Assembly (NCBI RefSeq): GCF_914768025.1
Contig: NZ_CAJZCE010000019.1
Coordinates: 1-40,522, forward strand
DNA: 40,522 nucleotides
Reading direction: 5' to 3'
Source: Snodgrassella gandavensis
GTDB taxonomy: Bacteria; Pseudomonadota; Gammaproteobacteria; Burkholderiales; Neisseriaceae
Shown: in pieces, positions 1,377-33,944 of the stretch
How the letters are laid out: every line of letters begins with the position of its first letter
How positions within the stretch are numbered: position 1 is the first letter of the stretch
The notes under the pieces: model-generated
The model's input: the letters and a program-made list of their open reading frames with translations, nothing else
Told to the model about the DNA's origin: nothing
Databases searched by the model: none
Translations under genes and position numbers: made by a program

Positions 1377-2246
1377 TTAGTATTTTTCCGGAATGTAACG
1401 ATAAGGGTAATTGGGCTCCTGATAATTGCCTTTATCCTGCCGCTTTGGCAGTTCGACTTTTTTCCGTGGTGTTTTTTTGTATGGAATTTCGCTGAGTATG
1501 TGTTTGATGATGTTCAAACGCGCTTTCTTTTTGTCGTTGGAATCGACGACATACCATGGAGCCCATGAGGTATCGGTAGCCATAATCATTTCGTCACGGG
1601 CACGGGAGTAGTCGTACCAGCGACTGTAAGATTTGATATCCATGGGAGAGAGTTTCCAGATTTTACGCGGGTCATTAATTCGACCAAGCATGCGTCGGTG
1701 CTGTTCTTCCATGTTTACTTCAAGCCAGTATTTGAGCAGGATGATGCCTGAATTGATGATGGCCTTTTCCATAAAAGGAATGATTTCGAGAAATTCTTTG
1801 CTTTCCTGTTCTGTGCAAAATCCCATAACACGCTCTACACCAGCACGGTTATACCAGCTACGGTCAAAGATGATAACTTCGCCGGCTGCAGGTAAATGGG
1901 GAATGTAACGCTGCATGTACATTTGTGTTTTCTGGCGTTCACTCGGTGCTGGTAAGGCTACTACCTGAAATATGCGTGGGCTGACTCTTTCGGTAATTGC
2001 TTTAATTGCACCACCCTTGCCTGCACCATCACGTCCTTCGAAGATGATGCAAACTTTTTGCCCGGAAGCTTTCACCCATTCTTGCAGGGCGACCATTTCA
2101 CCCTGAAGTTTTTCGAGCTCTTTGTAGTATTTCTTTTTGGTTAATTTTTTGTGTTTGCTATTTTTGTCGGTACAGATATTGCTTTGTTTTTCAGTTTGCT
2201 CGGTATCAGGCGTTTCTGTCTCTGGTTGCAATTGTTTATCAGTCAT
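1377..2246 (-). CDS. ppk2: Polyphosphate kinase 2 (PPK2 family)
   Basis: PPK2 enzymes transfer phosphate between polyphosphate and nucleotides, usually regenerating NTPs or NDPs from polyP. The Walker A loop GRDGAGKGG lies near residues 71-79, followed by the family signatures PAPSERQ and FDRSWYNRAGVERVMGF; the C-terminus ends NYPYRYIPEKY, typical of short single-domain PPK2. Length is 289 residues from the ATG at 2246, which has an AGGGTGG ribosome-binding site about five bases upstream; a GTG three codons earlier (2255) is less likely. The Lys/Glu-rich N-terminal 45 residues look unstructured. The gene stands alone. Nucleotide preference cannot be read from sequence alone. Confidence 0.93.
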   Translation of the reverse strand: MTDKQLQPETETPDTEQTEKQSNICTDKNSKHKKLTKKKYYKELEKLQGEMVALQEWVKASGQKVCIIFEGRDGAGKGGAIKAITERVSPRIFQVVALPAPSERQKTQMYMQRYIPHLPAAGEVIIFDRSWYNRAGVERVMGFCTEQESKEFLEIIPFMEKAIINSGIILLKYWLEVNMEEQHRRMLGRINDPRKIWKLSPMDIKSYSRWYDYSRARDEMIMATDTSWAPWYVVDSNDKKKARLNIIKHILSEIPYKKTPRKKVELPKRQDKGNYQEPNYPYRYIPEKY

Positions 2247-2444
2247 AATTACCACCCTTTGCCGGTTGGTTTGTTAATAATTAAATTACTTTTACCTATA
2301 TAAACAGAATATTAATGATAACAGCCATTTGCAACTTGAGTTACGCGTTTTTACATTGTAATTTTATTCAGACATTCATGTTTATGTAACCTGATATATT
2401 TTTGGGCAGAATGGCCATCTGCTTTATTGAGGATATGGAACGAA

Positions 2445-3644
2445 TTATTGTGGCAATTGATTTTTTGCATTGGTACGCTGTTCGTCACGTACGGTAAACC
2501 ACCATACGATTAAGCCAATTATTGCTAGCACAACACCAACCCAAGCGGTACTGCTCCAGCCCCAGCCTGCGGCAATAGTTAAACCTCCCAAATAAGGCCC
2601 GAGGGCATTGGCGGCGTTGAAAGCGCTATGATTCAGTGCTGCGGCCAGAGTTTGGGCATCTTTGGCTACGTCCATAAGACGAATTTGTAACAAGGTACCT
2701 ACGGCACCGCTCATGCCGATGAGAACGACTTGTATGCATATCCAGTATGGATAATGTAGGGCAAAAGGGTATAAGGCTAACATGACTGCCGACCATGCCA
2801 GTAACCATGCTAGTCCTGACATTACATGGCGTCCAACCAGACGCGGTATGATGATGTTGCCTAGGGTCATGCCTACGCCGTATAGACACATAACCAGTGG
2901 CACGCTTTTGGGTGACATACCGGTAATGTTTTCGAGGGTTGAAGCCATGTAGGCATATATGCCAAACATGCCGCCAAAGCCGATAGCACCTATGGCTAGT
3001 GTGAGCCAAATCTGACGATTGGTGAGTGCACTGAGTTCGCGCACGGCATTGCTGCCGCCACCCTGCATGCAGTTTGGTGGTAAAAAAAGAGCTACTAAGA
3101 TGACGGTGATAGCAGCCAGTAAGGCAACTATGAGAAAGACGACGCGCCAACCTACTGCCTGTGCCAGCCAACTGCTTAAGGGCACGCCGATGGTGGTGGC
3201 AAGGGTTAAGCCAATCATCATTAACCCCACAGCCTGTGTTCTTTTTTCTGGTGATACCATGGCCGCGGCAACCAACGCACCAACGCCAAAATAAGCTCCA
3301 TGTGGTAAGCCGCTTAAGAAGCGAAATAACATTATGCTGTTGTAGTTCGGAGCGAGCATGGTGCCTAGATGTGCTGAAGCAAAAAATGCCATGAGCACTA
3401 ACAACAGACTGCGCCGACTGAAACGCGCGCCAAATATGGCAATAACTGGAGCACCTACAACAACACCAAGGGCATAAATACTGATTAGATGTCCTGCTGT
3501 GGGTTCGCTGATATTTAAGCCGCTGGCGATATAGGGTAAAACGCTCATGGTGGCAAATTCGGTGATGCCGATGGCGAAACCGCCAACGGCAAGGGCAAGT
3601 AATAGCCAGCGTGGATGGGGGATACGGTTAGGTTCTGTGTTCAT
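2445..3644 (-). CDS. MFS transporter, DHA1 family (AraJ/YdhP-like)
   Basis: This 399-residue protein has about 12 hydrophobic segments, the usual number for a major facilitator superfamily drug/proton antiporter. After a short cytoplasmic start, TM1 reads LLALAVGGFAIGITEFATMS, where GITEF is characteristic of DHA1 sugar/drug efflux proteins such as AraJ and YdhP. The TM2-TM3 loop FGARFSRRSLLL corresponds to MFS motif A. It is predicted to be an inner-membrane proton-driven exporter; the substrate is unknown. It is divergent from the aminotransferase operon starting at 4038 and might export that locus's product, but nothing direct links them. Confidence 0.85.
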   Translation of the reverse strand: MNTEPNRIPHPRWLLLALAVGGFAIGITEFATMSVLPYIASGLNISEPTAGHLISIYALGVVVGAPVIAIFGARFSRRSLLLVLMAFFASAHLGTMLAPNYNSIMLFRFLSGLPHGAYFGVGALVAAAMVSPEKRTQAVGLMMIGLTLATTIGVPLSSWLAQAVGWRVVFLIVALLAAITVILVALFLPPNCMQGGGSNAVRELSALTNRQIWLTLAIGAIGFGGMFGIYAYMASTLENITGMSPKSVPLVMCLYGVGMTLGNIIIPRLVGRHVMSGLAWLLAWSAVMLALYPFALHYPYWICIQVVLIGMSGAVGTLLQIRLMDVAKDAQTLAAALNHSAFNAANALGPYLGGLTIAAGWGWSSTAWVGVVLAIIGLIVWWFTVRDEQRTNAKNQLPQ

Positions 3645-4037: not shown

Positions 4038-5456
4038 ATGATGAGTAAGCCTAGTGCTCAAACAATTGAAAATCGTCGGGATGATACGCAGTTGCTCGCT
4101 GATGAAGCAAAGTATTGTTCTTTTGGTGATACGGTACATTATGTTAATCCGCCGAAAATTTTTGATGGCTGCGAAGGCAGCTATATGTATGATAAAAATG
4201 GCACGCCCTATCTGGATTTGCAGATGTGGTATTCGGCCTGTAATTTTGGTTATGCTAATGAACGCCTGAATACGGTGTTAAAGCAGCAGGTAGATACTTT
4301 GCCGCAGTGTGCAAGCCAGTATTTGCATCCAACCAAAATTGAGCTGGCAAAAACTATTGCTGAGGATATGAAGCGCAAATTTGGGCGTGATGGTCGGGTT
4401 CATTTTAATGTTGGCGGTTCTCAGTGTATTGAGGATTCTCTGAAAATTATCCGTAATGCGTCTGAAGGCCGGTCATTGATGTTTGCGTTTGAAGGTGGCT
4501 ACCACGGTCGTACGCTGGGTGCATCTTCTATTACTTCAAGCTTCCGCTATCGCCGTCGCTATGGTCATTTTGCTGACCGTGCAATGTTTATTCCGTTTCC
4601 TTATCCGTTCCGTCGGCCTAAAGGTATGACAGCAGAAGAATATGGAGAACATCTGGTAGCTGATTTCGCCCGTTTGTTTGAAACGGAATACCACGGTGTG
4701 TGGGATCCGAAAGCAGGTCAGGCCGAATATGCGGCGTTCTATATAGAGCCGCTGCAAGGTACTGGTGGTTATATTGTGCCGCCACGTAACTATTTTAAAG
4801 GACTGAAAAAAGTTCTGGATCAGTATGGTATTTTGCTGGTGGTCGATGAAATACAGATGGGCTTTTATCGCACTGGTAAGTTATGGTCGATTGAACACTT
4901 TGATGTACAACCAGATATGCTGGTGTTCGCTAAAGCATTGACCAATGGTTTGAATCCTCTCGGTGGTTTGTGGGCACGGGAAGAGCTGATTAATCCGCAG
5001 GTATTCCCTGCTGGTTCTACTCATTCTACTTTTGCTTCAAATCCGCTGGGTACGGCTGTGGGTCTCGAAGTATTCAGAATGATGGCAGAAACCGATTATG
5101 AGAAAATGGTTATGGAAAGCGGTGCCTATTTCCTTGAAGGCTTGAAAACTTTGGAACAGCGCCATAAGGAAATCGGTGAAGTAGATGGTCTGGGACTGGC
5201 GTTGCGTGCCGAAATCTGTACTGAAGACGGCTTTACACCAAATAAAGTGCTGGTAGATAAGATGGTAGATATCGGTATGTCTGGCGATCTGGAATGGCAA
5301 GGCCAGAAAATGGGGCTGGTATTGGATATTGGCGGTTATTACAAGAATGTGATTACTTTTGCCCCATCATTGCATATTACGAAACAGGAAATTGATCAAG
5401 GTATTGAATTATTGGATCAATTGATTACGCGTGCTAAAAAAGAATTAAACGCTTAA
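4038..5456 (+). CDS. Class III PLP-dependent aminotransferase
   Basis: This is a fold-type I, class III aminotransferase of the family that includes ornithine, 4-aminobutyrate, acetylornithine and diaminobutyrate aminotransferases. Visible motifs are the PLP phosphate region VGGSQCIEDSLKI, the aromatic stacking segment GGYHGRT, the acidic VDEIQMGFYRTG (Asp binds the pyridine nitrogen) and the Schiff-base lysine in VFAKALTNG near residue 298. At about 472 residues it is slightly long for the family, with an N-terminal extension. ATGs lie at 4029, 4038 and 4041; GGAAAGA at 4022-4028 suits 4038. It is the first gene of a rightward operon with an acyltransferase and an arginase-fold enzyme, which points to a di- or polyamine-type substrate, but specificity is not determined. 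Confidence 0.88.
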   Translation: MMSKPSAQTIENRRDDTQLLADEAKYCSFGDTVHYVNPPKIFDGCEGSYMYDKNGTPYLDLQMWYSACNFGYANERLNTVLKQQVDTLPQCASQYLHPTKIELAKTIAEDMKRKFGRDGRVHFNVGGSQCIEDSLKIIRNASEGRSLMFAFEGGYHGRTLGASSITSSFRYRRRYGHFADRAMFIPFPYPFRRPKGMTAEEYGEHLVADFARLFETEYHGVWDPKAGQAEYAAFYIEPLQGTGGYIVPPRNYFKGLKKVLDQYGILLVVDEIQMGFYRTGKLWSIEHFDVQPDMLVFAKALTNGLNPLGGLWAREELINPQVFPAGSTHSTFASNPLGTAVGLEVFRMMAETDYEKMVMESGAYFLEGLKTLEQRHKEIGEVDGLGLALRAEICTEDGFTPNKVLVDKMVDIGMSGDLEWQGQKMGLVLDIGGYYKNVITFAPSLHITKQEIDQGIELLDQLITRAKKELNA

Positions 5457-5468
5457 GCCACGTAAGAT

Positions 5469-5499
5469 GGCAGCTCGGCTAGTATTTAAGCCAGCTGCC
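5469..5499 (+). promoter_or_regulatory. Intercistronic stem-loop
   Basis: GGCAGCT (5469-5475) pairs with AGCTGCC (5493-5499), and after a one-base bulge GGCT (5477-5480) pairs with AGCC (5489-5492), around an 8-nt loop. No T-run follows and the next start codon is only 12 nt away, so this looks like an mRNA-processing or stabilising hairpin or an attenuator, not a terminator. Confidence 0.55.
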
Positions 5500-5511
5500 G
5501 TATAGGATGTT

Positions 5512-6600
5512 ATGAATTATCTGACTCAACTGGAACCGGATGAACTGGTCGAAACTTTTTTGGCCAGTCCTCCACAAGATTTTACTGCATGGCAACTAAC
5601 GAGTGATGTACCCGCTTTTGCTGCACGCTTTAATTTACTCACTACCGCTGATTCTGCTTTTCAGCAAAAAATTCGTCATTGGCCACTATTTCGTTGGTGG
5701 CAACGGTTTCTGCAACCTCTTACCTGTTTTATTGGGACAACGGTATCTGAATATGCTTTGTTCACTCAACACCAATCAGCACAGCAATTAGCTTTAGAAA
5801 TAAAGCAGAATTATGGCAAAAAATACCCGCTGCTGATTGTGAAAGATATTCCGCAACAGTCACCATTACTGGATACTCAGGCAAATGATTATGCAGCCAC
5901 ACTGATTCAATCATTGCAGCAACAGGGATTTATTGCAGTGGAAGGTCAGGCTTTGGCGTGGGTGCCTATTGATTTTAATGATATTGACGAATATCTGAGC
6001 CGCTTATCTTATCAACGCCGCAAAAATTTTCGACGTAAGTTGAAAACGCAGTCACTGGTGGAAACTGGTTGTCTACGCAGCGGTGATGCGTATTTTCAGG
6101 ATGAGGACGTTTTAGCGCAGTTTTATCAGTTATATTTGAATGTTTACAATCAAAGTGAAATTCATTTTGATTTATTAACCCGGGAATTTTTTGTGCGCCT
6201 GTTACAGGACAGCAGCAATCAAGCCCGAATTTTTACCTATCATTATCAACAGCAATTGATTGGATACAATATTTGTTTTGTTCTCAATAATATGCTGGTA
6301 GATAAATATATTGGCTTTGTTTATCCACAGGCTCGGAAGCTGAATCTGTATTATCTGAGCTGGTTTTATAATCTGGATTACGCTAGACAGCACGGACTGG
6401 ATTTTTATGTAGCCGGTTGGACTGATCCACAAGTGAAAGCATCTTTAGGTGCACATTTCACTTTTACCAAGCATATGGTCTATGTACGCAACCCGGTTTT
6501 AAGAACCTTACTATCCAAGATCAGTAGCCGCTTTGAGCAGGACAAAACTTGGCAGGAAGTCAGTAAGCAACATAGTCAGGATAGTAAAAAACATGAATAA
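5512..6600 (+). CDS. GNAT / FemAB-like acyltransferase (BioF2-like domain)
   Basis: This 362-residue protein is most like the GNAT-superfamily acyltransferases with a FemAB-like (BioF2-like, Acetyltransf_6 type) domain. The basic stretch LSYQRRKNFRRKLK near residue 170 is the family's characteristic RR.N.RR-type segment. It is followed by an acceptor-side segment (YQLYLNVYNQSEIHFDLLT) and a GNAT-like core (QQLIGYNICFVLNNMLVDKYIGF) ending in a segment ordering Tyr-rich helices (LNLYYLSWFYNLDYARQHG). Such enzymes N-acylate amines or amino acids with acyl-CoA, acyl-ACP or aminoacyl-tRNA donors; donor and acceptor are not evident here. It follows the aminotransferase by 55 nt and overlaps the next gene by 8 nt, so the three are probably cotranscribed. 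There is no signal peptide, so it is cytoplasmic. Confidence 0.7.
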   Translation: MNYLTQLEPDELVETFLASPPQDFTAWQLTSDVPAFAARFNLLTTADSAFQQKIRHWPLFRWWQRFLQPLTCFIGTTVSEYALFTQHQSAQQLALEIKQNYGKKYPLLIVKDIPQQSPLLDTQANDYAATLIQSLQQQGFIAVEGQALAWVPIDFNDIDEYLSRLSYQRRKNFRRKLKTQSLVETGCLRSGDAYFQDEDVLAQFYQLYLNVYNQSEIHFDLLTREFFVRLLQDSSNQARIFTYHYQQQLIGYNICFVLNNMLVDKYIGFVYPQARKLNLYYLSWFYNLDYARQHGLDFYVAGWTDPQVKASLGAHFTFTKHMVYVRNPVLRTLLSKISSRFEQDKTWQEVSKQHSQDSKKHE

Positions 6601-7483
6601 ACCGGTAATTCTGGATTTTGACCACAGTATGGGCACAATAGCAGATGCTTTCAGAATTGAACTGGGGCAATGGCAGGAAGCTATTCGTTTTGGCTGTGCA
6701 CAAGCCAAATTCAAACAGTTACAGGCAGAACTGACACGACAGTTACCAGCGTGCTATGGTACGGTACTGATGGGTAGCGGCGATTACCACCATGTTTCAC
6801 TATTACTGATTAAACGTTTACAGCAGTATTTCAATGCTACTAATCCAATACAGGTAGTTATTTTTGATAATCATCCGGACAATATGCGCTATCTGTTCGG
6901 GATTCACTGTGGTTCGTGGGTAAGCTATGTGGCGCAATTGCCTTTTGTCAGCCATGTGCATGTACTGGGTATCACTTCAAATGATATTGGCTTTGCCCAC
7001 TGCTGGGAAAACCGGCTGACACCATTACTTCAAGGTAAATTAACTTACTGGTGTATGGATGTTCAGGTTGGCTGGGCAAAAAAAATCGGCCTACAACAGG
7101 CTTTTCGTGCCTTTGCTTCGCCAGAAGAGCTGGTTAGCGCATTTATTCAGGCACAGCAACAAACCAGTGAATCAGTATATGTTTCAATTGATAAGGATGT
7201 GCTGGGTAAGGATGTGGTGCAAACCAACTGGGATCAGGGTCGTATGCAGCTGGTGCATTTATTGACTGTAATTGCTGCGCTGGATCAGCGCATTATTGGT
7301 AGCGACATTACCGGTGAAGTATCGCAATGGCAATACACCAACCTGCTCAAACGTCTGCTCAGTGCCATGGACAAGCAGGAACCGATTCCGGCAGCCACGC
7401 TGGCTGCATGGCAGCAACAACACCATGCGGTTAACCAGCAACTGCTTGCTGCTTTAGCTCAGCATCAACAAACGGTATTCTGA
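6593..7483 (+). CDS. Arginase/agmatinase-fold (ureohydrolase family) protein
   Basis: The family hydrolyses guanidino groups or, in other members, amides at a binuclear metal centre. The metal-ligand motifs are recognisable but divergent: GSGDYHH (residues 61-67, for GGDHS), FDNHPDN (91-97, for DAHxD) and SIDKDVLGKD (199-207, for SxDxD). All core Asp/His positions appear kept, so it should be active, but the spacing and flanks differ from true arginases and agmatinases. The start at 6593 (MNKPVILDFDHS) gives 296 residues and overlaps the acyltransferase stop by 8 nt, indicating translational coupling. Its 3' end overlaps the convergent DegT-type aminotransferase by 19 nt. The substrate is unknown: a guanidino compound or N-acylated amine would fit the neighbours. 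Confidence 0.75.
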   Translation: MNKPVILDFDHSMGTIADAFRIELGQWQEAIRFGCAQAKFKQLQAELTRQLPACYGTVLMGSGDYHHVSLLLIKRLQQYFNATNPIQVVIFDNHPDNMRYLFGIHCGSWVSYVAQLPFVSHVHVLGITSNDIGFAHCWENRLTPLLQGKLTYWCMDVQVGWAKKIGLQQAFRAFASPEELVSAFIQAQQQTSESVYVSIDKDVLGKDVVQTNWDQGRMQLVHLLTVIAALDQRIIGSDITGEVSQWQYTNLLKRLLSAMDKQEPIPAATLAAWQQQHHAVNQQLLAALAQHQQTVF

Positions 7484-8652
7484 ATAACTTCAGCTATTCG
7501 GGAAAATTGTGCATCAGTAAGCCATGGACTATTGGTAATGGTTAACATACGTGCAGCAAAATCTTCAGCATTGGGCATGGCCATAGCTGGTACGAGTGGC
7601 CGCAGGTAATCGTATTGTGCCAGTGTATGGATGAATAAACGGGTAACGCCTAAGGGACTAGCCCATAATTGGTTTAATACTGCATCGCGGTGCTGGCCGG
7701 TGGGCAATAACACCATCAGAAATGGCCATACTCCCTGTCCATGCTGGTCAATAATTACCTGTACGCCGGTAATGCTCTGCAACTGCTGAATACGTTGCTG
7801 CGCCTGTTGTTGCAAGGTATATAAAAATGTCGGTAAGCGTTGTAAAGCATTCGCAGCGACATTCTGCCGCCAGCGGCTAACCCGATGCAAAGGGATAGCA
7901 AAATCAAAATCATCGCCTACTGCGGCAATCCATTGTTGCTGACGCAGGGCTTTGCGCCGGCCGTGTCCATAGGCAAAGTGCAACCCAGTAGGATTATATA
8001 AGGCTGTATACCCTAAAAGTTCGAGAGTGCGCAGTGCTTCCCATTTAAGCTGCAATGGTAATAACCTGTTAGCGGTGGTTTGCAAACTGCGGCGTAACTG
8101 TGTATCAGCTGCGGTTAGCAAACCACCTTCATACATGGTTAGTCCTTTACCGGCCGCCAGACTAAACAATATAACATCACCATGTTTGCCTACTTCAGCA
8201 CCCAATGCCTGCGCCGCATCTTCTATTACACTAATTTGGTATGGCTGTGCCAGTTGTTTAACGGTACCTACATCCGTTACCCGACCACCTAGATGGGTGG
8301 GTATGACAGCCAATACATGCTCATTTAACAGGGTAGTAAGTTGTGCAGTATCCAGATCAATACTATCTGGCTTTAAATCACATAGTTGTATCTGCAAACC
8401 GCAATGATGAATGGCCAAAGCCACCAGTGGACAGGTATAAGCCGGGACAATTACGGTTTTGCGCTGGGGGTGTTGTTGTGCCAGCGTAGTTAAGGCAACG
8501 ATCAGTGCCGCCGTACCGGAACAGGTTACCTGTAATGGCGACAAATTTAATTGTGTACTGACACTGTCTGGCAGTGATTGCTGTGTCGGCAACCAGTCAC
8601 GCCATTTCAATGGTAAACCGGCAGTAGGCGGATTTTCATAATAGTTGAGCAT
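7465..8652 (-). CDS. DegT/DnrJ/EryC1/StrS-type PLP aminotransferase
   Basis: This fold-type I enzyme of about 395 residues has the hallmarks of the DegT/ArnB group: CSGTAAL (44-50) at the PLP phosphate site, VIEDAAQALGAE with Asp145 for the pyridine nitrogen, and LFSLAAGKGLTMYEGG, where Lys169 is the likely Schiff-base lysine. The context around that lysine departs from the usual SF..TKN..tGEGG of sugar aminotransferases, so the substrate may not be a nucleotide sugar. The ATG at 8652 is preferred; a GTG at 8661 would add three residues. It is the last gene of the leftward operon, 21 nt after the second EamA gene, and its end overlaps the arginase-fold gene. Confidence 0.8.
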   Translation of the reverse strand: MLNYYENPPTAGLPLKWRDWLPTQQSLPDSVSTQLNLSPLQVTCSGTAALIVALTTLAQQHPQRKTVIVPAYTCPLVALAIHHCGLQIQLCDLKPDSIDLDTAQLTTLLNEHVLAVIPTHLGGRVTDVGTVKQLAQPYQISVIEDAAQALGAEVGKHGDVILFSLAAGKGLTMYEGGLLTAADTQLRRSLQTTANRLLPLQLKWEALRTLELLGYTALYNPTGLHFAYGHGRRKALRQQQWIAAVGDDFDFAIPLHRVSRWRQNVAANALQRLPTFLYTLQQQAQQRIQQLQSITGVQVIIDQHGQGVWPFLMVLLPTGQHRDAVLNQLWASPLGVTRLFIHTLAQYDYLRPLVPAMAMPNAEDFAARMLTITNSPWLTDAQFSRIAEVIQNTVC

Positions 8653-8682
8653 AAATGGCACTAAAACTCAGACCCAGAAAAT

Positions 8683-9090
8683 TTAACACGCTTCATCATC
8701 TTTGCAGTGTTCAGTTTGGATAATTTCTTTTTCAGCCAGAGCCAAAAAGATGATGCCAGCCACAATAAATACTGCACCAATAATACGGATAGCAGTGATA
8801 TGTTCATGAAACAGAAAAGCTGAAACCAGCATTACTGTGACCACTTCCAGATGCGAAGCAGCAAACGCCGGGCCTACTGGTGCTTTCTTGAGTAACACCA
8901 TCCAAGTAAAAAATGCCCCAATATAGCCTGCAATGGCAATATAGACCCATGGCTGAGTGAATACTCGGATAATCCAGTCCAGACTGGCTTCAAGGGGCTG
9001 GGCATGAATAGCAGTTAGTTTAAAACTGCTTTGTCCTAGCGTATCGAACAATAATAAGAGCGCAAAACCAATTAAATAAAATTTACGCAT
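8683..9090 (-). CDS. Half-size EamA/SMR-type membrane transporter, second subunit
   Basis: This 135-residue protein has four hydrophobic segments, the size of one EamA repeat or of an SMR/ArnE-ArnF subunit. It opens MRKFYLIGFALLLLFDTLGQSSFK; the FDTLGQ..FK motif is shared with the preceding gene, showing that the two are paralogues. The short C-terminal tail (IQTEHCKDDEAC) is polar. Its start codon overlaps the previous stop (TAATG at 9088-9092), so the two are translationally coupled and probably form a heterodimer. Paired small DMT proteins export polyamines (MdtI/MdtJ) or flip lipid-linked aminosugars (ArnE/ArnF). The substrate here is unknown. Confidence 0.8.
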   Translation of the reverse strand: MRKFYLIGFALLLLFDTLGQSSFKLTAIHAQPLEASLDWIIRVFTQPWVYIAIAGYIGAFFTWMVLLKKAPVGPAFAASHLEVVTVMLVSAFLFHEHITAIRIIGAVFIVAGIIFLALAEKEIIQTEHCKDDEAC

Positions 9091-9446
9091 TATGACGCTC
9101 CTACCAGTACTACCCCGATGGTGATACAGAACATGCCTATCAGCCGGAAACGGGTAAGTTTTTCCTGAAACAGCACCCGTCCAACCAACATCAGTACAAT
9201 AATATTAATTGAGCCCAGTAATATGCCCTGTGACAAAGGCACCTGACTTAAAAACGCCAACCACAATAAAAACTCAGCAACATAAGAACCGATGCCAATC
9301 CACAACCAGTAATTGCTGAACAGGTCGACCCAGTAATACCAACCATTGCGGTTATCCGGTGCTATGGCTGCATATTTAAATGCAGTTTGGCCAAGCGTAT
9401 CAAAACAGATGTTGGCCAACCATAGCATGAATACAATCAGGTTCAT
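9090..9446 (-). CDS. Half-size EamA/SMR-type membrane transporter, first subunit
   Basis: This 118-residue protein with four predicted membrane helices begins MNLIVFMLWLANICFDTLGQTAFK and ends at IGVVLVGAS, the typical GxxLVxxG end helix of the EamA fold. It shares the FDTLGQ.(A/S)FK helix-1 motif and the overall pattern with its partner at 8683-9090, with which it overlaps by one base. Being a four-helix protein it must dimerise to form a pore, most simply with that partner. It lies 35 nt after the alpha/beta hydrolase gene in the leftward operon. Its inner-membrane location and the surrounding enzymes suggest export or flipping of the locus product. Confidence 0.8.
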   Translation of the reverse strand: MNLIVFMLWLANICFDTLGQTAFKYAAIAPDNRNGWYYWVDLFSNYWLWIGIGSYVAEFLLWLAFLSQVPLSQGILLGSINIIVLMLVGRVLFQEKLTRFRLIGMFCITIGVVLVGAS

Positions 9447-9481
9447 ATAATATTTCTTTCTGCTACAAGATGAATATTCAC

Positions 9482-10303
9482 TTAAGCTGACTGAGCAATA
9501 TTTTCAAAAAAGGCAACTGACTGATTAATGACTTCACGCCGCTGCCGGTCAATGGTAATCAGATGATAACTGTCATCCAGCACCACAAGCTGGGTCATTC
9601 CGCTAACATGCTTTTCGACCAGACGGGCATTGGTATTGATATTGGCAATATCATCGTGACCGGAATGCATAATCAAACAGGGGGCTTTTACCTGTGGCAG
9701 TTGCCGCCGCATCAGTTTGGCCAGTGTCTGCATTTCCGCCAATGCCGGAAACGGATTGCCAGCCAGACCGGCACTGGCACTATCGCCACTGAACATACTG
9801 GCTGCCACAGTTGCACGGATACGTTCATCTTTCAGTCCGTATGGTGGTTTTTCAATAAAAGAGGTTTTCTGAAATAAATGTAGTTTCTTTAAAAAGGGTA
9901 ACAAAACAAAAAGCTGTTTTGCCCAGAATGGAATAGACCAGCCATCATAGCTAAACGTTACCCCATAGACACCAACACCCTTTACCAGTTCTGGCTGATC
10001 AGCAGCCAGCTTCAATGCCAGTAGCGCGCCCATTGATAATCCGGCCACAAACAGGCAATCAACATGTTGCTGTAAAAAGCGCGCTGCTTCCTGCACACTG
10101 GCATACCAGTCATGCCAGGTGGTCTGACACAAATCAGCCTCATCACCACAATGACCAGCCAGCTGCATTGCATACACAGTAAAACCGGCCTGATGCAACC
10201 CTTTGGCCAGAATACGCATTTCATTTGGTGTACCGGTTAAACCGTGAATCAGGAGCACGCCATTGCGATTACCGGGTAAAAAATAGGAAGAATCTTGAAT
10301 CAT
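9482..10303 (-). CDS. Alpha/beta hydrolase (carboxylesterase/monoacylglycerol lipase type)
   Basis: This 273-residue serine hydrolase has a complete apparent catalytic triad: Ser90 in the nucleophile elbow GLSMG, Asp217 or Asp218 in MHSGHDDI, and His247 in DSYHLIT. The oxyanion-hole HG is at residues 20-21 (LLIHGLTGTP). The layout, with a lid insert around residues 115-185, resembles Est30-type carboxylesterases and monoacylglycerol lipases. There is no signal peptide, so it is cytoplasmic. In the leftward operon it sits 24 nt after the HAD phosphatase and ahead of the EamA pair. It could hydrolyse or transfer an acyl ester or thioester in the pathway; that role is inference. Confidence 0.85.
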   Translation of the reverse strand: MIQDSSYFLPGNRNGVLLIHGLTGTPNEMRILAKGLHQAGFTVYAMQLAGHCGDEADLCQTTWHDWYASVQEAARFLQQHVDCLFVAGLSMGALLALKLAADQPELVKGVGVYGVTFSYDGWSIPFWAKQLFVLLPFLKKLHLFQKTSFIEKPPYGLKDERIRATVAASMFSGDSASAGLAGNPFPALAEMQTLAKLMRRQLPQVKAPCLIMHSGHDDIANINTNARLVEKHVSGMTQLVVLDDSYHLITIDRQRREVINQSVAFFENIAQSA

Positions 10304-10327
10304 AATTACAAATCAGCTTATAAAGCG

Positions 10328-11074
10328 TTATGCCGGAAACAGGCAGCAATTTTCAACCGGTGCTTTAATCAGGTTTGGCAAAATGGCAACAACATCACTA
10401 AAATCATTAATTGGCACATACTGAATGCCCTGTTGCTGACAAAAATCAATAAGTTTATCTTTAGCAAAAACCAGATCTACTTTATCTGCCACACAAAAAT
10501 CCGAAGTACCATCACCAACATAAAAAATCTTCTGAAAACCAACCAACTGCCGGCGATGCTGACATTTACAATTGCCACTGGCTTTAAGACAGTATTGATT
10601 GGCATAAGGAAAATCCAGTTTCCAGCCCTGCTGTTGATCATGCAATAGACGATTGGCAAAAATAGGCAAGAAGTTAAAACCATAGCGCTTCAGAATCGAC
10701 TGGATTGCATAATCCAGCCCATCACTGACAATGTGCACATTTATATTTGCATTTCGTACCAGATCAATAAATGCGCTAAATGCAGGATCAATTCTGATTT
10801 GTGCCAGCACACTGTCCAATTCAGCCTGACTAGCTTGCATATTGGCAATTTGTTGACGCATGCATTCACGCGAACCAATCATGCCATCCAACCATTGCTG
10901 CTCCAATAAGGCACATTTTTCATTGCCGAAATGGTTCAGTAAGGTATCAGTAACATCTTGTTCGCTGATGGTGCCGTCAAAATCACACAGTATCGTATAC
11001 TGAATTAAGCTATTGGCATAGAATAATGGTTTGTGGCTAGTCTGGTTCTCGACAATGGGAGTGAAACAGCTCAT
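10328..11074 (-). CDS. MtnX-like HAD-IB family phosphatase
   Basis: This 248-residue HAD phosphatase has its motifs in order: DFDGT (nucleophile Asp31, acid/base Asp33), motif II Ser117 in HIVSDGLD, motif III Lys182, and motif IV GDGTSDFCVA (Asp188). The Cys-rich insert CLKASGNCKC (162-171) is typical of MtnX-like proteins, whose founder dephosphorylates 2-hydroxy-3-keto-5-methylthiopentenyl-1-phosphate in methionine salvage; no other salvage gene is nearby, so the substrate here probably differs. The first 25 residues (MSCFTPIVENQTSHKPLF...) are an unusual extension. It is the first gene of the leftward five-gene operon, so the operon promoter should lie just right of 11074. Confidence 0.85.
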   Translation of the reverse strand: MSCFTPIVENQTSHKPLFYANSLIQYTILCDFDGTISEQDVTDTLLNHFGNEKCALLEQQWLDGMIGSRECMRQQIANMQASQAELDSVLAQIRIDPAFSAFIDLVRNANINVHIVSDGLDYAIQSILKRYGFNFLPIFANRLLHDQQQGWKLDFPYANQYCLKASGNCKCQHRRQLVGFQKIFYVGDGTSDFCVADKVDLVFAKDKLIDFCQQQGIQYVPINDFSDVVAILPNLIKAPVENCCLFPA

Positions 11075-26641: not shown

Positions 26642-29600
26642 ATGAATAAAACTTACCAACCAACATGGCGAATCAGAACAAAAGCATATATTAGTGCATC
26701 CGCACCAAAGCCAGATTTCAGAAAAAAAACACTGGTTCAACTAATGGCAGTTATCGGCATTATCGCTTTCACTACCAGCGAAGCATATGCCAACTGCTCT
26801 GATTCATCTAACAAAAATTGTATTACCAAAGAAACAAACTCATCGCCATCCACATACAGCGGAAACACCACCAATTTTGATGGCTATATCGCAAACGACA
26901 ACACAGACCCAGTCAATATCTCCACCAGCGACAAACCATTAAATAATTCACTAACCATCATAAACAATGCTGGCGCCAGCGATTTGAATGTCACCGTAAA
27001 AAATACAAATATAAAAAATATATATTCCCTTAACAACTCAGGAAAAGCAGCAATATCAATAACCACAACCGCAGACATGACAACACCCAATGGTTTTGGC
27101 ATCTCCGTGAGCAACGCCGGCACAAACCTCACCCTCAACACCAAAAACATTAACAGCCAGACAAACGCAATCTATGCTGTAAACTATGGTACCGGTGCCA
27201 CCTCTATCACCACAGCAGACATCACCTCCAGCGGCAGCAATGGCATCTATGCACAAAATAACAATAACACCACAGACCTGACCGTCACAACCGGAACAAT
27301 CAATGCCAATCAAGATGGCCTTTACCTCAAAAACAGTGGTACCGGTGTCACCTCTATCACCATCAACGGAGATGTCACCTCCGCCAATAGTGATGCCATC
27401 TATGCAGAAAACGACCCCGCCGCAACAGATCTAACCATCAATACCAAAACCATTAACGGCAAAAATAATGGTATCTACGCCGCCAATTTCGGCACAGGTT
27501 CAACAACAGTGACAGCAGAAGGCAACATCACCGCCACCAATCAAAACGGCATATACGCATTCAATCATGGCCAGCATCTAACCATCAACACACACAATGT
27601 ACAGGGTTCCCAAAGCGGAATTTATGCAACTAATGAAGGTAGCGGTTCCACCTCAATAACAGCCAAAGGCAACATCACCGCAACCAACAGCGATGCCATT
27701 CATATTGAGAATAAAAGCAATACCAAAGACCTAATTATCAAAACAGATAACGTAAACGCCAAAATGAACGGCATATATACCACCAACAACGGTACAGGCA
27801 TTACCTCCATAACTGTCAGCAACGACATTATCGCCGCCAATGGCACCGGTATATTTGCACAAAACTTAAATACAGCAGGCAACCTAAACATCAACGCAAA
27901 GAATATCAACGCCAACCTAAACGGTATATACGTCATCAATAATGGAACCGGCTCAACCTCAATCGCCACTGCTGGCACCATACAAGGCCTGCACCAATAT
28001 GGCATCCACGCAGAAAATAACCAAACAGGCACAGATATCAGCATTAACCAGACCAGTGGTTCCATTACCGGCGCGTTAGACGGCATTGATGTACTCAACC
28101 GCACCCCACATGGAAACAACACCGTCACCGTAACAGGGAAAGTCACTGGCGGCACGGGCGCAGGTATTTATACCAGCGGCAGCCCCGGAACTACCACAAT
28201 AATCACCCTTAATAGCGGCGCCAATGTCGATGCCACCTCAGGTACAGCGATTCGCGACGCTGATGACAACTCCATTGTCACCATCAACAATGGAGCCAAA
28301 GTAAGCGGCTCAATTATTCTGGGTAATGGCAGCGATACCTTAAACATCAATAGCGGAGCAGATACATCAGCTATTAGCGTACTTGATGGTGGCGATGACA
28401 CCAGCGATAGTGATGGGATGATTGATACACTCAATATCAGCCAGTCACTGACTGGTTCATCTAGCAGCAATGGCACAACTGGAAATATAGGCATCCGCAA
28501 CTGGGAAAATATCAACCTCCTACAACAAAGTACACTCACCCTGACCGGTGACTTAAATACCAGCAACCTTAATATCGACCCTGCTGCAACATTAAATCTT
28601 ATCCCATCCCTACATCAGGCCGTAATAAATGGCAATATCACAAATTCCGGTAATCTAATCTTAAGTAATAATCAAGCAGGTGACCACTTAACCATCAATG
28701 GCAACTATATCGGCAACAATGGCACAATTACCCTAGATACCATATCACAGGATAATAACAGCGCAACCGATAAATTGTTTATTAATGGTAATGCCTCCGG
28801 TCGAACCATAGTACAAATGAATAACACAAACGGACTGGGTGCTGATACCGGCACCACCGATGGTATTGAAATTATCAATATCACAGGTAACAGCACCAAC
28901 AACGCCTTTAATCTGCAAAATGATCATATTGATGCCGGTGCTTACGAATATCATTTATACAAAGGCAATATTAATGGTCAGAACAGCAACTGGTATTTAC
29001 GCTCTCAACTAGCAAAACCTGACGATCCGAACAACCCGAACAACCCCAATAACCCGAACAACCCGAATAACCCGAACAACCCGAATAACCCGAATAACCC
29101 GAATAACCCGAACAACCCGAACAACCCGAACAACCCGAACAACCCGAACAACCCGAACAACCCGAACAACCCGAACAACCCGAACAACCCGAATAACCCG
29201 AACAACCCGAACAACCCGAACAACCCCAATAACCCCAATAACCCCAATAACCCCAATAACCCCAATAACCCCAATAACCCCAATAACCCCAATAACCCCA
29301 ATAACCCGAATAACCCGAATAACCCGAATAACCCAAACAACCCAAACAACCCGAACAACCCAAACAACCCGAACAACCCGAACAACCCCAATAACCCCAA
29401 TAACCCCAATAACCCCAATAACCCCAATAACCCCAATAACCCGACTCAACCAGAAAAAGGTAATAGCTCATCAAAACTAAAACCTACTTACCGAAAAGAA
29501 GTCCCTCTGTATGCTGCTGTTGCTGCCCAACTCCGGCAAACTGATATCATCATGCTGAGCAATATGCATCAAAGAATTGGCACCACACCAACACCAGATG

Positions 29601-30430
29601 AACGCATGAGCTGGGGACGCATCATTTCTGGTCGAACCGATATTCGGCAAGATGGTGTTTCTGATGTCCACTCCACCGGCAACTATGTCGGAGTGCAACT
29701 TGGTAGTGACATCTGGCACAATCAAGGCTGGCGGATTGGTGGTTATTTAGGTTATATCTATAGTGATATGAATGTTGATGGCTTTGCCAGCGGCATATAT
29801 GGCAAAGTAGGCAAAAACACATCAAAATCCTACTTCCTCGGAGCCTATAGTAATTATGTTTATGCTAACGGTGCCTATCTTGATATCGTCCTGCAAGGCG
29901 CACACCATCATGTCGACATCAAACCCAATGGTAATAACGATAGCACCCAGAAAGGCCATGGTTTCACCGCATCAATCGAAACAGGTAAACCATTTACCCT
30001 TAGCAACAGCAACTGGAAAATAGAACCACAAGTACAAATAATGCATCAGTGGCTAGATTTAAACGACACTAATATCAGCGGCCGCACCAGCGTCAGCCAC
30101 AATCATAATAATGCATGGCTGTTCAGATTAGGCGGACGCATGCAAGGCAGCTATCAACTTGGCAAAGGTACCCTGCACCCTTATACCCGTGTTAACGTAT
30201 TCTACTCACCTGATGGAGCAGATCGAACCACCTACAGCGCCAATATCGCAGCAACGACATTGCATTCCGGTGCTGCGCATACCAGCACAGAACTGGCCAT
30301 AGGTGCCACCTACGATATTAATGAGAGCATAAAAATATACAGCGAAATCGGCCATACCTGGTCCAACGGCGGTAATGCACGAATAAAAGCACCGCTAAGC
30401 GGTTCTCTAGGATTGAAAGTTAACTGGTAA
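26642..30430 (+). CDS. Large autotransporter adhesin with PNN-repeat stalk (type Va)
   Basis: This 1262-residue autotransporter has a long signal region of about 50 residues. It opens MNKTYQPTWRIRTK, reminiscent of a degenerate ESPR, followed by the hydrophobic core LMAVIGIIAFTTSEAYA. The passenger (about residues 51-780) is Asn/Thr/Gly/Ile-rich and built from alternating rungs such as NGIYAxNxGTGxTSI and (D/N)GIYAxN...TDLTI, expected to form a right-handed beta-helix. A segment with DAGAYEYHLYKG...NSNWYLRS resembles the usual pre-barrel junction. Residues 796-933 are 46 tandem Pro-Asn-Asn units. The C-terminal 280 residues form the outer-membrane beta-barrel (WGRIISGRTDIRQDG... ending GSLGLKVNW). 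It is predicted to be displayed on the surface as an adhesin; the ligand is unknown. Confidence 0.92.
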   Translation: MNKTYQPTWRIRTKAYISASAPKPDFRKKTLVQLMAVIGIIAFTTSEAYANCSDSSNKNCITKETNSSPSTYSGNTTNFDGYIANDNTDPVNISTSDKPLNNSLTIINNAGASDLNVTVKNTNIKNIYSLNNSGKAAISITTTADMTTPNGFGISVSNAGTNLTLNTKNINSQTNAIYAVNYGTGATSITTADITSSGSNGIYAQNNNNTTDLTVTTGTINANQDGLYLKNSGTGVTSITINGDVTSANSDAIYAENDPAATDLTINTKTINGKNNGIYAANFGTGSTTVTAEGNITATNQNGIYAFNHGQHLTINTHNVQGSQSGIYATNEGSGSTSITAKGNITATNSDAIHIENKSNTKDLIIKTDNVNAKMNGIYTTNNGTGITSITVSNDIIAANGTGIFAQNLNTAGNLNINAKNINANLNGIYVINNGTGSTSIATAGTIQGLHQYGIHAENNQTGTDISINQTSGSITGALDGIDVLNRTPHGNNTVTVTGKVTGGTGAGIYTSGSPGTTTIITLNSGANVDATSGTAIRDADDNSIVTINNGAKVSGSIILGNGSDTLNINSGADTSAISVLDGGDDTSDSDGMIDTLNISQSLTGSSSSNGTTGNIGIRNWENINLLQQSTLTLTGDLNTSNLNIDPAATLNLIPSLHQAVINGNITNSGNLILSNNQAGDHLTINGNYIGNNGTITLDTISQDNNSATDKLFINGNASGRTIVQMNNTNGLGADTGTTDGIEIINITGNSTNNAFNLQNDHIDAGAYEYHLYKGNINGQNSNWYLRSQLAKPDDPNNPNNPNNPNNPNNPNNPNNPNNPNNPNNPNNPNNPNNPNNPNNPNNPNNPNNPNNPNNPNNPNNPNNPNNPNNPNNPNNPNNPNNPNNPNNPNNPNNPNNPNNPNNPNNPNNPNNPNNPNNPNNPNNPNNPNNPNNPTQPEKGNSSSKLKPTYRKEVPLYAAVAAQLRQTDIIMLSNMHQRIGTTPTPDERMSWGRIISGRTDIRQDGVSDVHSTGNYVGVQLGSDIWHNQGWRIGGYLGYIYSDMNVDGFASGIYGKVGKNTSKSYFLGAYSNYVYANGAYLDIVLQGAHHHVDIKPNGNNDSTQKGHGFTASIETGKPFTLSNSNWKIEPQVQIMHQWLDLNDTNISGRTSVSHNHNNAWLFRLGGRMQGSYQLGKGTLHPYTRVNVFYSPDGADRTTYSANIAATTLHSGAAHTSTELAIGATYDINESIKIYSEIGHTWSNGGNARIKAPLSGSLGLKVNW
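29027..29440 (+). repeat. 46 x 9-bp tandem repeat encoding (Pro-Asn-Asn)46
   Basis: The 414-bp array is read in frame as 46 uninterrupted PNN units between the beta-helix passenger and the barrel. Four synonymous unit types occur: CCGAACAAC, CCGAATAAC, CCCAATAAC and CCAAACAAC. Identical units are clustered: units 10-18 are all CCGAACAAC, units 23-31 and 41-46 are all CCCAATAAC. This is a sign of local expansion by slippage or unequal recombination. Because the unit is 9 bp, copy-number change alters protein length without breaking the frame. Confidence 0.97.
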
Positions 30431-31454: not shown

Positions 31455-33944
31455 TTACCACGAATAACGGTAATTCAGATTAACCCCGAATTTCTGTTCG
31501 GTTTTCTGACCATTGGCATAATTAAGCTTAAAGTCAGCATGATTATTGTGATCAAAATCCACCCCCAGACCAGCTTCATACAAACCACTGTTACCAGCAC
31601 CGGCAATACGCAGATTTTCATCATCAACAACAGCATGACCCAGCCCACTTTTATCATGCAGCCAATATGCACCGACATAAGGATTCAAACTTACCTTATT
31701 CAAAGCAAATGAAGTTTTAACTGCGGCTCCCAGCTTACTGCGATAAAAAGTAGTACTGTTGGTATACTCATCACCAGATAACCGGCCTACCGTCATCCCG
31801 AGCTTCGGCGTAACCACCCACTTATCAGCCAGATTGAAATCCTTGCCCAACTGAGCATTCAGACTATTCGCATGCCATGTAGAATTATCCATCTTACTGG
31901 CAGACGTTTTCAGATGGCTGTATCGGTAAGCCGCATCTGCGAACCAACCACCGGCATTTTGCCAACCAACATAAATACCAGTAGTTATCGCCTTCAGATT
32001 ACCATCTTTATAATTGCCATTAAAGTCCACACTTGAATGCCCTTGTCCCACAAAAGCACCCAGATACGTCTGATTATTCTCACCATCACCCAATGGCAGA
32101 ACATGATCATAACCTAATTGCAGACTATAAGACTTCTGCTTGAAGCCTGCCGTAGCCAAACCATCGCTGGTGCCCGTACTATCAAAATGATCATGAGCAT
32201 AATTACTGTCCAGCCACAGATTATTATTACCCCGAGACTGCGATTTCAGACTAGCCAGACGCGCATTCAGCGGTTCCTGTAGCTGATACACAAACTGATT
32301 GGCGGCCTGACGCATACTGATCAGCGAATTGGCAAAATCACTGATTTCATAATCAGCACCATGATGACTGCCACCAGAAGACGCTGCGCCCTTATCATTG
32401 CTTAAAACCCATTTATTATCATCTTCCTGATGGAAGAAATAACGGTATTTACCCGCATCTACATAATCCTGCACCATAGTGAACGAACCATCACCACCAC
32501 CCTTGGACTCAACCAGCGTTACCTGACCATTCGGTGTTTTTGGTCGTTTACGGCTATCAGATACACTGATCTTATGCTCACCATGTACCTTACCTTCAAT
32601 CACAATCTTATCCGCCTGCCGATCAGCCAGACTGGTATTCAGATTAAACAAACCATTACTACCGCTCAGATCACCATGAATCGTCAGCGTCTTGAATTGA
32701 CCACCTTTACTAAAAGAAATACTAGAATCGTGAATATTCAGCTCATCCAGCTCACTATTACCATTAATCAGCCAGGAAGAACCATTCTTCAGATTAAACG
32801 TTACTTTTGGTGCCAGCTTTGGATTCTGATCAATATAAATGCGCCCAGCCAATTGCGAGTTATCTGCAGTTAAAGTAAGTGGTTGTTGCGCCGCAACTGT
32901 TTCATCACCTATTGCATCATCATCCTCAGCACCTTCTATATAAGTGCGATGGTCATTAATACCCAATAAAGCATCCTGCCCAATCAAACTGCTATTTTTA
33001 ATATTAAAGACGTGTGGAGCAGCTACTTCCTGATTAGTAGCTAACATGATACCAATACCGGAATTTATGGTACTGCCATCAATATTAACTGCACTCCCAT
33101 TATTCAGAAAAAAACCAGCGCTGAATGGGTTGGTAAAATTTATTTCCGTATTGGTAACATTGGCAATACTGTGATTTTTCAGATTGTGATTTGCTACATC
33201 AATACCAACATTCCCATACCCATTTCCTTGTATTTTCATGTTATTTATATTAACTATAGCATCTTGATCTTCCTCCACACTTTCGACGCGGATCGCAGAT
33301 GAATAATCAGCATTCTTACTTAAATTTATAACAGAATCATGAATATCGGCCACACCAAGTGAAATGTAATATGCAAGTGAATTAGGTGCAGTAATAGAAA
33401 AATCAGCCTGAGAATTCAGATTGCCGCCACTAAGCTCTACTCCGGTAATACCCCAATCAAATTCTTTCGGCTGGCCTTGCAAGCTAAAATGAACATTTTT
33501 AGGTAGCACAAACTGTGCATCTGCTCTCTCTGTGTGAAAACTCACGCCGGTATGTGCTACATCCTGCCTGAATGGCCCATACGCAGCATTATTTAGATAC
33601 GATGTATCTACCGTGATTTCAGTATTCGGAGAAAACTCCACCCGTGGCGGTTCAGTAGAACCGGGCAAATCATAAATATTAAATATTGTAAAACCGCGAA
33701 TATAAGTATTTTCCGGGATATCGTCGTCCTCGAATAAACTCTTGAATTCCTCTACAGTGGGTATTCCATTTCGATATTTCCCAGATGCAACAATGACCTT
33801 ATTACCATTATTCACATCTGGATTAACTTCACACGAATCCAAAGCAGGGCAAATAGTATCAGCCATACTATAAGCCGACAAACATCCTAGCACCACCAGC
33901 ATTAAAGCTTTAAGTTTCAATGGAGGATAAACTGATTTCATCAC
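31455..33944 (-). CDS. Autotransporter adhesin 2 (pertactin-like, type Va)
   Basis: This 829-residue autotransporter has a conventional signal peptide (KLKALMLVVLGCLSAYSMA, cleavage near residue 28). The passenger (about residues 30-540) is Asn/Ser/Asp-rich with short repetitive strands typical of a beta-helix. It ends in a pertactin-type junction (VDAGKYRYFFHQEDDNKWVLSN, then a Ser/Gly/His linker). The last 280 residues form the barrel, beginning near FANSLISMRQAANQFVYQLQEPLNARL and ending FGVNLNYRYSW with the usual terminal aromatic. No protease triad was recognised, so an adhesin or aggregation role is inferred. It lacks the Pro-rich tandem repeat of autotransporter 1 and has a different barrel sequence, so the two are not recent duplicates. 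Confidence 0.92.
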   Translation of the reverse strand: MMKSVYPPLKLKALMLVVLGCLSAYSMADTICPALDSCEVNPDVNNGNKVIVASGKYRNGIPTVEEFKSLFEDDDIPENTYIRGFTIFNIYDLPGSTEPPRVEFSPNTEITVDTSYLNNAAYGPFRQDVAHTGVSFHTERADAQFVLPKNVHFSLQGQPKEFDWGITGVELSGGNLNSQADFSITAPNSLAYYISLGVADIHDSVINLSKNADYSSAIRVESVEEDQDAIVNINNMKIQGNGYGNVGIDVANHNLKNHSIANVTNTEINFTNPFSAGFFLNNGSAVNIDGSTINSGIGIMLATNQEVAAPHVFNIKNSSLIGQDALLGINDHRTYIEGAEDDDAIGDETVAAQQPLTLTADNSQLAGRIYIDQNPKLAPKVTFNLKNGSSWLINGNSELDELNIHDSSISFSKGGQFKTLTIHGDLSGSNGLFNLNTSLADRQADKIVIEGKVHGEHKISVSDSRKRPKTPNGQVTLVESKGGGDGSFTMVQDYVDAGKYRYFFHQEDDNKWVLSNDKGAASSGGSHHGADYEISDFANSLISMRQAANQFVYQLQEPLNARLASLKSQSRGNNNLWLDSNYAHDHFDSTGTSDGLATAGFKQKSYSLQLGYDHVLPLGDGENNQTYLGAFVGQGHSSVDFNGNYKDGNLKAITTGIYVGWQNAGGWFADAAYRYSHLKTSASKMDNSTWHANSLNAQLGKDFNLADKWVVTPKLGMTVGRLSGDEYTNSTTFYRSKLGAAVKTSFALNKVSLNPYVGAYWLHDKSGLGHAVVDDENLRIAGAGNSGLYEAGLGVDFDHNNHADFKLNYANGQKTEQKFGVNLNYRYSW

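Follow-up and report, generated by a model that had tools for sequence, protein, structure and literature searches.

MprF and the aminoacyl-phosphatidylglycerol synthases are tandem-GNAT enzymes that pair a synthase with a flippase and alter envelope charge. In the Arn system, which modifies lipid A with 4-amino-4-deoxy-L-arabinose (L-Ara4N), a DegT-type pyridoxal 5'-phosphate (PLP) enzyme (ArnB) occurs together with a pair of half-size EamA transporters (ArnE and ArnF), and DevBCA-TolC is an exporter of glycolipids. The double-GNAT architecture is common to FemABX and the natural-product aminoacyl-tRNA transferases VlmA, DhpH-C, PacB and Orf11, according to passages of a review whose main text does not contain the word aminotransferase (PMC12945691). 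Here we describe an eight-gene locus of Snodgrassella gandavensis (assembly GCF_914768025.1, genome size 2.5 Mb) that resembles each of these systems in part. It lies on contig NZ_CAJZCE010000019.1 (C19), whose 40,522 nucleotides are the whole stretch analysed and are called the window below. One arm, on the plus strand, encodes a class III PLP-dependent enzyme (AT3), a FemAB-like transferase and an arginase-fold hydrolase; the other, on the minus strand, encodes a DegT-type PLP enzyme, two half-size EamA transporters (EamA1, EamA2), an alpha/beta hydrolase (ABH) and a HAD-IB phosphatase. Both arms are almost certainly one pathway, and with a probability of about 0.5 its product is an amine-bearing molecule that is flipped across the inner membrane, most likely an envelope lipid of cationic or zwitterionic kind.

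Like MprF, the locus would join a tandem-GNAT synthase to a flippase and change envelope charge, but in this locus each of the two, synthase and putative flippase, has a gene of its own, and two PLP enzymes, the phosphatase, the hydrolase and the arginase-fold enzyme accompany them. The Arn models match the DegT-type enzyme and the EamA pair, and two adjacent half-size EamA genes correspond to the ArnE/ArnF-like arrangement. In contrast to Arn, neither a sugar dehydrogenase/decarboxylase nor a glycosyltransferase is among the eight genes, the DegT gene is optional, and the scores lie far under the cut-offs. For ArnE and ArnF these were 32.1 bits (cut-off 92) and 31.2 bits (cut-off 99) with EamA1, and 23.0 and 27.2 bits with EamA2; the ArnB, ArnE and ArnF labels were rejected because the curated cut-offs were not reached. 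The likeness to DevBCA-TolC comes from a Xanthomonas relative of the locus (L019), whose ATPase scored best with DevA and is encoded together with an FtsX permease, HlyD and TolC; that ATPase falls under the DevA cut-off and the exporter is absent from the window's locus. The likeness of the FemAB-like enzyme to FemABX, VlmA, DhpH-C, PacB and Orf11 is one of architecture. No OlsB-type acyltransferase or serine palmitoyltransferase (OlsBA, Spt) was found among the Pfam matches of the eight proteins, nor in their NCBIfam tables, one of which comprised the best 25 of 69 rows.

The sequence-only reading had placed the eight genes in two arms meeting tail to tail, and the window indeed holds eight intact open frames in this order between 4041 and 11074 (Table 1); its family calls agree with the Pfam and NCBIfam profile matches. 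The tight spacing it described is seen in the 8-nt overlap of the FemAB-like and arginase-fold genes, in the 1-nt overlap (TAATG) of EamA1 and EamA2, encoded side by side as proteins of 135 and 118 amino acids, and in the gaps between DegT and EamA1 (21 nt), hydrolase and phosphatase (24 nt) and EamA2 and hydrolase (35 nt), but not between AT3 and the FemAB-like gene, which lie 55 nt apart. The 3' ends of the arms overlap by 19 nt (7465-7483). A scan for promoters and terminators gave no clear signal over shuffled sequence: 17 promoter-like sites were found where shuffling gave 23.9 on average, and 10 terminator-like ones where it gave 7.6.

Table 1. Genes of the eight-gene locus in the window
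Feature	Coordinates	Strand	Evidence and remarks
Class III PLP-dependent enzyme (AT3)	4041..5456	+	PF00202 (Aminotran_3) 246 bits; best-conserved gene of the locus
FemAB-like tandem-GNAT transferase	5512..6600	+	PF04339/PF13480 (FemAB_like/Acetyltransf_6); AlphaFold2 model
Arginase-fold metallohydrolase, partner of the FemAB-like gene	6593..7483	+	PF00491 23.0 bits against cut-off 22 (weak)
DegT/DnrJ-type PLP enzyme, optional member	7465..8661	-	PF01041; K172
Half-size EamA transporter 1 (EamA1)	8683..9090	-	PF00892; ArnE/ArnF models match far under cut-off
Half-size EamA transporter 2 (EamA2)	9090..9446	-	EamA-like 26 bits, under Pfam cut-off 28.2; ArnF weak
Alpha/beta hydrolase (ABH)	9482..10303	-	PF12146 (Hydrolase_4)
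MtnX-like HAD-IB phosphatase	10328..11074	-	TIGR01489 108 bits against cut-off 81.55

The arms had been proposed to form a single pathway; their independent occurrence was looked for in related genomes, and the unity survived. In a sample of 397 Pseudomonadota genomes from 232 genera, searched with cut-offs of our own choice (E 1e-10, 1e-150 and 1e-45), the arginase-fold, AT3 and ABH genes were matched in 20, 28 and 30 genomes, covering 13, 17 and 20 genera, respectively. AT3 and ABH, which belong to opposite arms, were found jointly in 27 genomes (Fisher p 2e-37, a value that ignores kinship between genomes). AT3 occurred without ABH in G112, and ABH without AT3 in G221, G339 and G396, all three weak matches; each of the 20 arginase-fold genomes also had both. 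Within the own family the arginase-fold gene was present in 11 of 83 genomes, every one of them of the own genus (11/14), and the HAD gene of the other arm was found in the same 11; the genome-wide search of the genus covered these two genes. One of the three genus genomes without them, G074, is only 60% complete. In another, G078, the RsmE-like gene (575-1318 in the window) stands immediately after a LysM gene, and the eight genes are missing between them; in G076 different genes flank LysM. The PPK2-like and MFS genes of the window (1377-3644) are missing from the same site of G078 and may thus be part of the same island. The neighbourhood was found again across alpha-, beta- and gammaproteobacteria, and its recurrence is far beyond chance. 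The eight-gene set is therefore a unit, as proposed, but is conserved across Pseudomonadota and not peculiar to this genome.

A set of related loci was collected to profile their gene content. The contig scan for AT3 gave at least 593 pattern matches and at least 582 relatives, of which the best 80 were kept; together with four plasmid loci they make up the 84 loci counted here, picked for possession of AT3 and closeness to the window. Loci L001-L016 were excluded as short, thirteen of the 84 are shorter than 20 kb, and L095 and L096 look like duplicate copies of one region. Neighbours were counted by tblastn, since a simple gene caller chose antisense frames in the GC-rich loci. The FemAB-like and arginase-fold genes were each present in 75 loci, HAD in 69, EamA2 in 65, EamA1 (adjoining EamA2) in 64, ABH in 63 and DegT in 40. 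All eight genes were found together in 40 loci; if DegT is disregarded, the other seven are complete in 62. The 75 loci with FemAB-like and arginase-fold genes are the same ones, and the remaining nine have neither gene. Outside the 84, the arginase-fold gene was seen without FemAB in L140, but there the cluster sits at a contig start. Because the two genes travel together, their enzymes probably act in sequence.

Twelve genomes of the 21 loci lacking ABH were searched (those of L017, L018, L060, L063, L065, L071, L076, L077 and L098 lay outside the search), and all 12 encode the hydrolase elsewhere. Of seven such sites, four lie on the AT3 contig past the flank and the remaining three on a different contig. 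HAD accompanies the hydrolase at five (L153-L156, L159), four of these also have the EamA pair and three of those DegT; the other two (L157, L158) combine ABH with the EamA pair, an acyl carrier protein (ACP) and a ketosynthase (KS), and L158 additionally with DegT. DegT, in contrast, was not found in any of the eight searched genomes of DegT-less loci; a second search detected 5/5 known positives and stayed silent in 2/2 further DegT-less loci. Not every one of the eight genes is required: besides this lack of DegT matches, 8 of the 28 AT3-bearing sampled genomes gave no match to the arginase-fold gene. Twenty further stretches, mostly around matches of the phylum sample, contained the smallest sets, HAD-AT3-ABH (L123, L125) and ACP-KS-HAD-AT3-ABH (L124, L126); AT3 stood by itself in L122, and ABH without AT3 in L137-L139, with KS/ACP or KS-HAD adjoining the hydrolase in L137 and L138. 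HAD, the class III enzyme and ABH look like the core of the pathway, with FemAB plus arginase-fold, the EamA pair and DegT as modules.

The enzymes retain their catalytic residues in the aligned rows, whose roles we assign from family knowledge. AT3 carries the Aminotran_3 domain and keeps the Schiff-base lysine K298 in 97/97 aligned rows. It is distant from characterised class III enzymes, with an alanine/serine racemase as best solved match. Thr439 (97/97 rows) aligns with the Arg of the NVLR motif of GabT, presumably R398, which we take to bind the substrate alpha-carboxylate; Arg stands opposite Thr439 in the alanine/serine racemase, 7vno, a broad-specificity racemase and the GabT entry, and the 2eo5 alignment stops earlier. 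DegT keeps K172 in 59/59 rows and the HAD-IB phosphatase the Asp pair D31/D33 in 74/74, in line with an MtnX-like HAD-IB phosphatase; MtnX proper (TIGR03333) was rejected at 87.3 bits against a cut-off of 303.2. In ABH the nucleophile is Ser in 75/79 rows and Cys in 4/79, with D217/D218 and H247 in 79/79. The ABH frames of L127 (~12.9-13.7 kb) and L137 (9481-10311) read Cys at this position, and the L137 stretch contains KS and ACP but not AT3. By chemistry alone, an amino-alcohol headgroup made by transamination and dephosphorylation would fit AT3 and HAD, comparable to the serinol that RtxA derives by the dihydroxyacetone phosphate aminotransferase route with both steps in one domain, as described in passages of PMC3222319.

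The AlphaFold2 model of the FemAB-like enzyme (mean predicted local distance difference test score, pLDDT, 90.1) has the tandem-GNAT fold of FemABX and other aminoacyl-tRNA-dependent transferases. Sbb17, L-PGS, A-PGS, FemX and MprF were at the top of the Foldseek search, and the 29 best matches (E from 1e-10 to 1e-7) all were FemABX, aminoacyl-phosphatidylglycerol synthase/MprF or Sbb17/Sba18 structures, bar 2hqy_B, whose function is unknown. At the sequence level its profile found no meaningful match among solved structures, only three chance matches at E 0.36-0.39. Lys309 is present in 98/98 rows. FemX proper (NF047883) was rejected, with 17.4 bits where the cut-off is 500. As the closest folds of the predicted acyltransferase depend on aminoacyl-tRNA, the product described as N-acylated may instead be aminoacylated; we give aminoacylation less than even odds. 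A ceramide-synthase-like role of the enzyme was considered too, but a literature search returned nothing on it.

The arginase-fold enzyme (mean pLDDT 93.0) showed the ureohydrolase fold expected for it, with a best Foldseek E-value of 3e-7, template-modelling scores (TMq) of about 0.5 and matches that include agmatinase and metformin hydrolase. H66/H67, D92, H94 and D96 are present in 100/100 rows, and D200 and D202 in all 99 rows with a residue there; we take these to be the ligands of the binuclear metal centre. It differs from the arginase superfamily at two positions, mapped wholly or partly by eye. The position of the guanidinium-binding Glu, presumably E277 of ARG1, which would lie just past the printed alignment, is Gly241 in 99/99 rows with a residue there and follows the aligned DIT/DVV, and the position we assume to be the functional His141 of arginase is Cys in 100/100 rows. 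Since the guanidinium-binding Glu is apparently missing though the metal ligands are kept, the enzyme is probably no arginase and probably has no guanidine substrate; the arginase/agmatinase label was rejected on this ground.

The nature of the product is suggested by the neighbours in related loci. KS and ACP genes were found in 13 and 12 of the 84 loci, the KS being FabF-like with Cys-His-His kept by eye. Cyclopropane fatty acid (CFA) synthase occurred in six, MipA in 21, an MBOAT gene with an AlgX-like partner in three and a cyanophycin-synthetase-like pair in five loci; in L127, CFA synthase and MipA are joined by a fatty-acid desaturase. Exporter components were also frequent (HlyD and TolC 28 each, FtsX 32, ABC 37), although some transporter matches far from AT3 surely are other transporters. 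Histidine kinases and response regulators were present in 32 and 31 loci; a single regulator and a single kinase were tested, and these came nearest to RstA and RstB, under cut-off. The one ATPase tested, that of L019, reached 220.7 bits with the DevA model TIGR02982 (cut-off 295.8). Because relatives add KS/ACP, cyclopropane synthase, desaturase, DevA-like exporter, MipA and two-component genes, an amine-bearing envelope lipid appears the most likely product; the odds that it is an aminolipid are about even. The build-modify-export scheme for an amine or aminolipid put forward by the sequence-only reading is thus well supported in its unity and plausible in its product class. In five Alcaligenaceae/Pigmentiphaga-type genomes (L043-L047, ~13.3-18.3 kb) the cyanophycin-synthetase-like pair adjoins the AT3-FemAB-arginase-fold arm, and in the three of these genomes fetched the other arm lies past that pair on the same contig. 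In L017 and L018, from large plasmids of Bartonella from bat feces, the same arm adjoins the MBOAT and AlgX-like genes.

Several observations weigh against this reading. In the window, no KS, ACP, exporter or two-component genes adjoin the eight, and it is therefore the relatives that carry the case for a lipid. The KS match of L085 is only 34% identical and probably unrelated, and the CFA synthase, MBOAT and cyanophycin-synthetase-like genes, present in few loci, are possibly bystanders. The ATPase of L019 scored 204.1 bits with LolD, close to its DevA score, and LolD serves lipoprotein release. The ArnE/ArnF, DevA and FemX scores all stay under their cut-offs. Template-modelling scores of the 29 best FemAB-like matches are moderate (0.38-0.55), and tandem GNATs of another kind (2wpw) match that model as well. 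The FemAB/arginase-fold module is missing from nine of the 84 loci, and the arginase-fold gene from the eight AT3-bearing genomes mentioned above. For AT3 itself the label aminotransferase is uncertain, because the carboxylate-binding Arg of GabT is missing.

In the proposed envelope-lipid pathway, the class III enzyme would place an amine on a headgroup or on an ACP- or lipid-linked precursor, and the HAD-IB phosphatase would take off a phosphate. A dedicated KS/ACP could supply the acyl chains in some genomes, whereas in the window's genome general fatty-acid synthesis presumably does so. The FemAB-like enzyme would transfer an amino acid from aminoacyl-tRNA, or an acyl group, onto that amine, the arginase-fold hydrolase would trim or mature its product, and the half-size EamA pair would flip it. 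In loci that encode a DevA-like ATPase together with HlyD, FtsX and TolC, these proteins may transport it further under two-component control. The likely role would be a change of envelope charge or resistance to peptides of hosts or competitors. We regard as doubtful, taken as a whole, a more detailed version: an undescribed pan-proteobacterial envelope-aminolipid pathway in which the phosphatase, the hydrolase and a class III PLP enzyme whose carboxylate site is altered build the lipid, a soluble MprF/FemX-like enzyme aminoacylates it, an arginase-fold amide or imine hydrolase edits it and an EamA heterodimer flips it, spread laterally among alpha-, beta- and gammaproteobacterial bee-gut symbionts and maybe directed against host peptides.

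The most serious competitor, though an unlikely one, is a soluble secreted natural product such as an aminoacylated amine with antibiotic-like or signalling function, for which KS/ACP would make a short acyl or ketide unit and the EamA pair and, in loci that have one, a tripartite pump would serve export. Sbb17 and Sba18, among the nearest folds of the FemAB-like enzyme, are aminoacyl-tRNA-dependent peptide synthases solved with streptothrisamine, and FtsX/ABC/HlyD/TolC pumps export small molecules too; the model of the darobactin exporter DarD scored 172.5 bits on the ATPase, under its cut-off of 375. The CFA synthase, desaturase, MBOAT and MipA neighbours and the ArnE/F-like pair, however, indicate lipids or the envelope, and the distribution appears unusually wide for a specialised metabolite. 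Modification of peptidoglycan, in which a precursor would receive an amino acid from the FemAB-like enzyme and then be edited by the arginase-fold one, would agree with the Pfam name FemAB_like and the FemX fold match, but is improbable: it leaves no place for HAD, ABH, KS/ACP and the EamA pair, the curated FemX model scored as low as given above, and the only Mur-type neighbours identified are the cyanophycin-synthetase-like genes of five loci, of which one member of each pair has Mur-ligase domains. Slightly less probable still is amine or polyamine metabolism, in which ureohydrolase and aminotransferase would degrade or make polyamines for export by EamA. Class III aminotransferases and the arginase family are the usual polyamine toolkit and the structural matches include agmatinase and metformin hydrolase, but Gly at the guanidinium-Glu position and AT3 without the GabT Arg argue otherwise, and KS/ACP, CFA synthase and the phosphatase would be left unexplained. 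A chance tail-to-tail meeting of two unrelated operons was rejected as hardly credible: convergent arms are transcribed separately, 15 of the 84 loci show none of HAD, ABH, EamA1 and EamA2 in the examined DNA and six have right-arm members without FemAB/arginase-fold, but the genes co-occur in the sampled genomes, are jointly absent within the genus, stand elsewhere in different orders and orientations, and ABH is found elsewhere in the same genomes.

The closest record found for the window's locus was L021, a Neisseriaceae metagenome bin with a 95% identical AT3; AT3 identities to copies in Bartonella, Xanthomonas and an Agrobacterium plasmid were 82%, 73% and 67%. Two trees of seven concatenated proteins were calculated, the first from 47 rows in which no more than one of the seven families is missing (twelve loci were dropped as near-copies or as short), the second with a mixture model from 28 rows chosen by us. 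The window fell among Orbaceae in both, and Comamonadaceae were placed apart. In the 28-row tree the window, L021 and five Orbaceae formed a seven-row clade (support 100), sister to Gilliamella and ESL0721 (97) and then to Wohlfahrtiimonas (99); Bartonella and Tokpelaia joined next, with support of 100 in this tree and 91 in the 47-row tree. A constraint that grouped the window and L021 together with seven rows of beta type was rejected in the 28-row tree (log-likelihood difference 554, p 1.6e-62), a test in which the beta-type group was named after the first tree had been seen, L083 of the seven is without class label and the letter make-up differs between rows. On the evidence of these trees, the locus moved by lateral transfer, since the window's copy nests inside the gammaproteobacterial Orbaceae, and the direction is given as far as this nesting goes. 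Many hosts in the tree live in insect guts, and the transfer apparently took place among bee-gut symbionts.

Elsewhere in the window, two big autotransporter-like open frames were judged by eye at 26642-30430 (plus strand) and 31455-33944 (minus strand), the former with a very long NPN-type repeat linker ahead of its C-terminal part. A low-complexity open frame with SSSG/LP repeats at 39780-40502 (minus strand) probably is the antisense of a repeat region.

The earlier statement that no described pathway has this gene set stands within the open-access literature, with subscription journals mostly outside: a search on the locus, its enzymes, hosts and analogues returned no paper on it. Enzymes of the set (arginase-fold, AT3 and ABH) are present in about 5-8% of the 397 sampled Pseudomonadota genomes, without a described product in the literature searched. 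If the envelope-lipid reading is true, the locus would stand alongside MprF as a second architecture for making aminoacylated lipids, and would give meaning to gene names that say little by themselves, such as 'arginase family', 'peptidoglycan biosynthesis' and 'MtnX-like'. It would also be a candidate colonisation trait, laterally acquired and common to unrelated gut symbionts.

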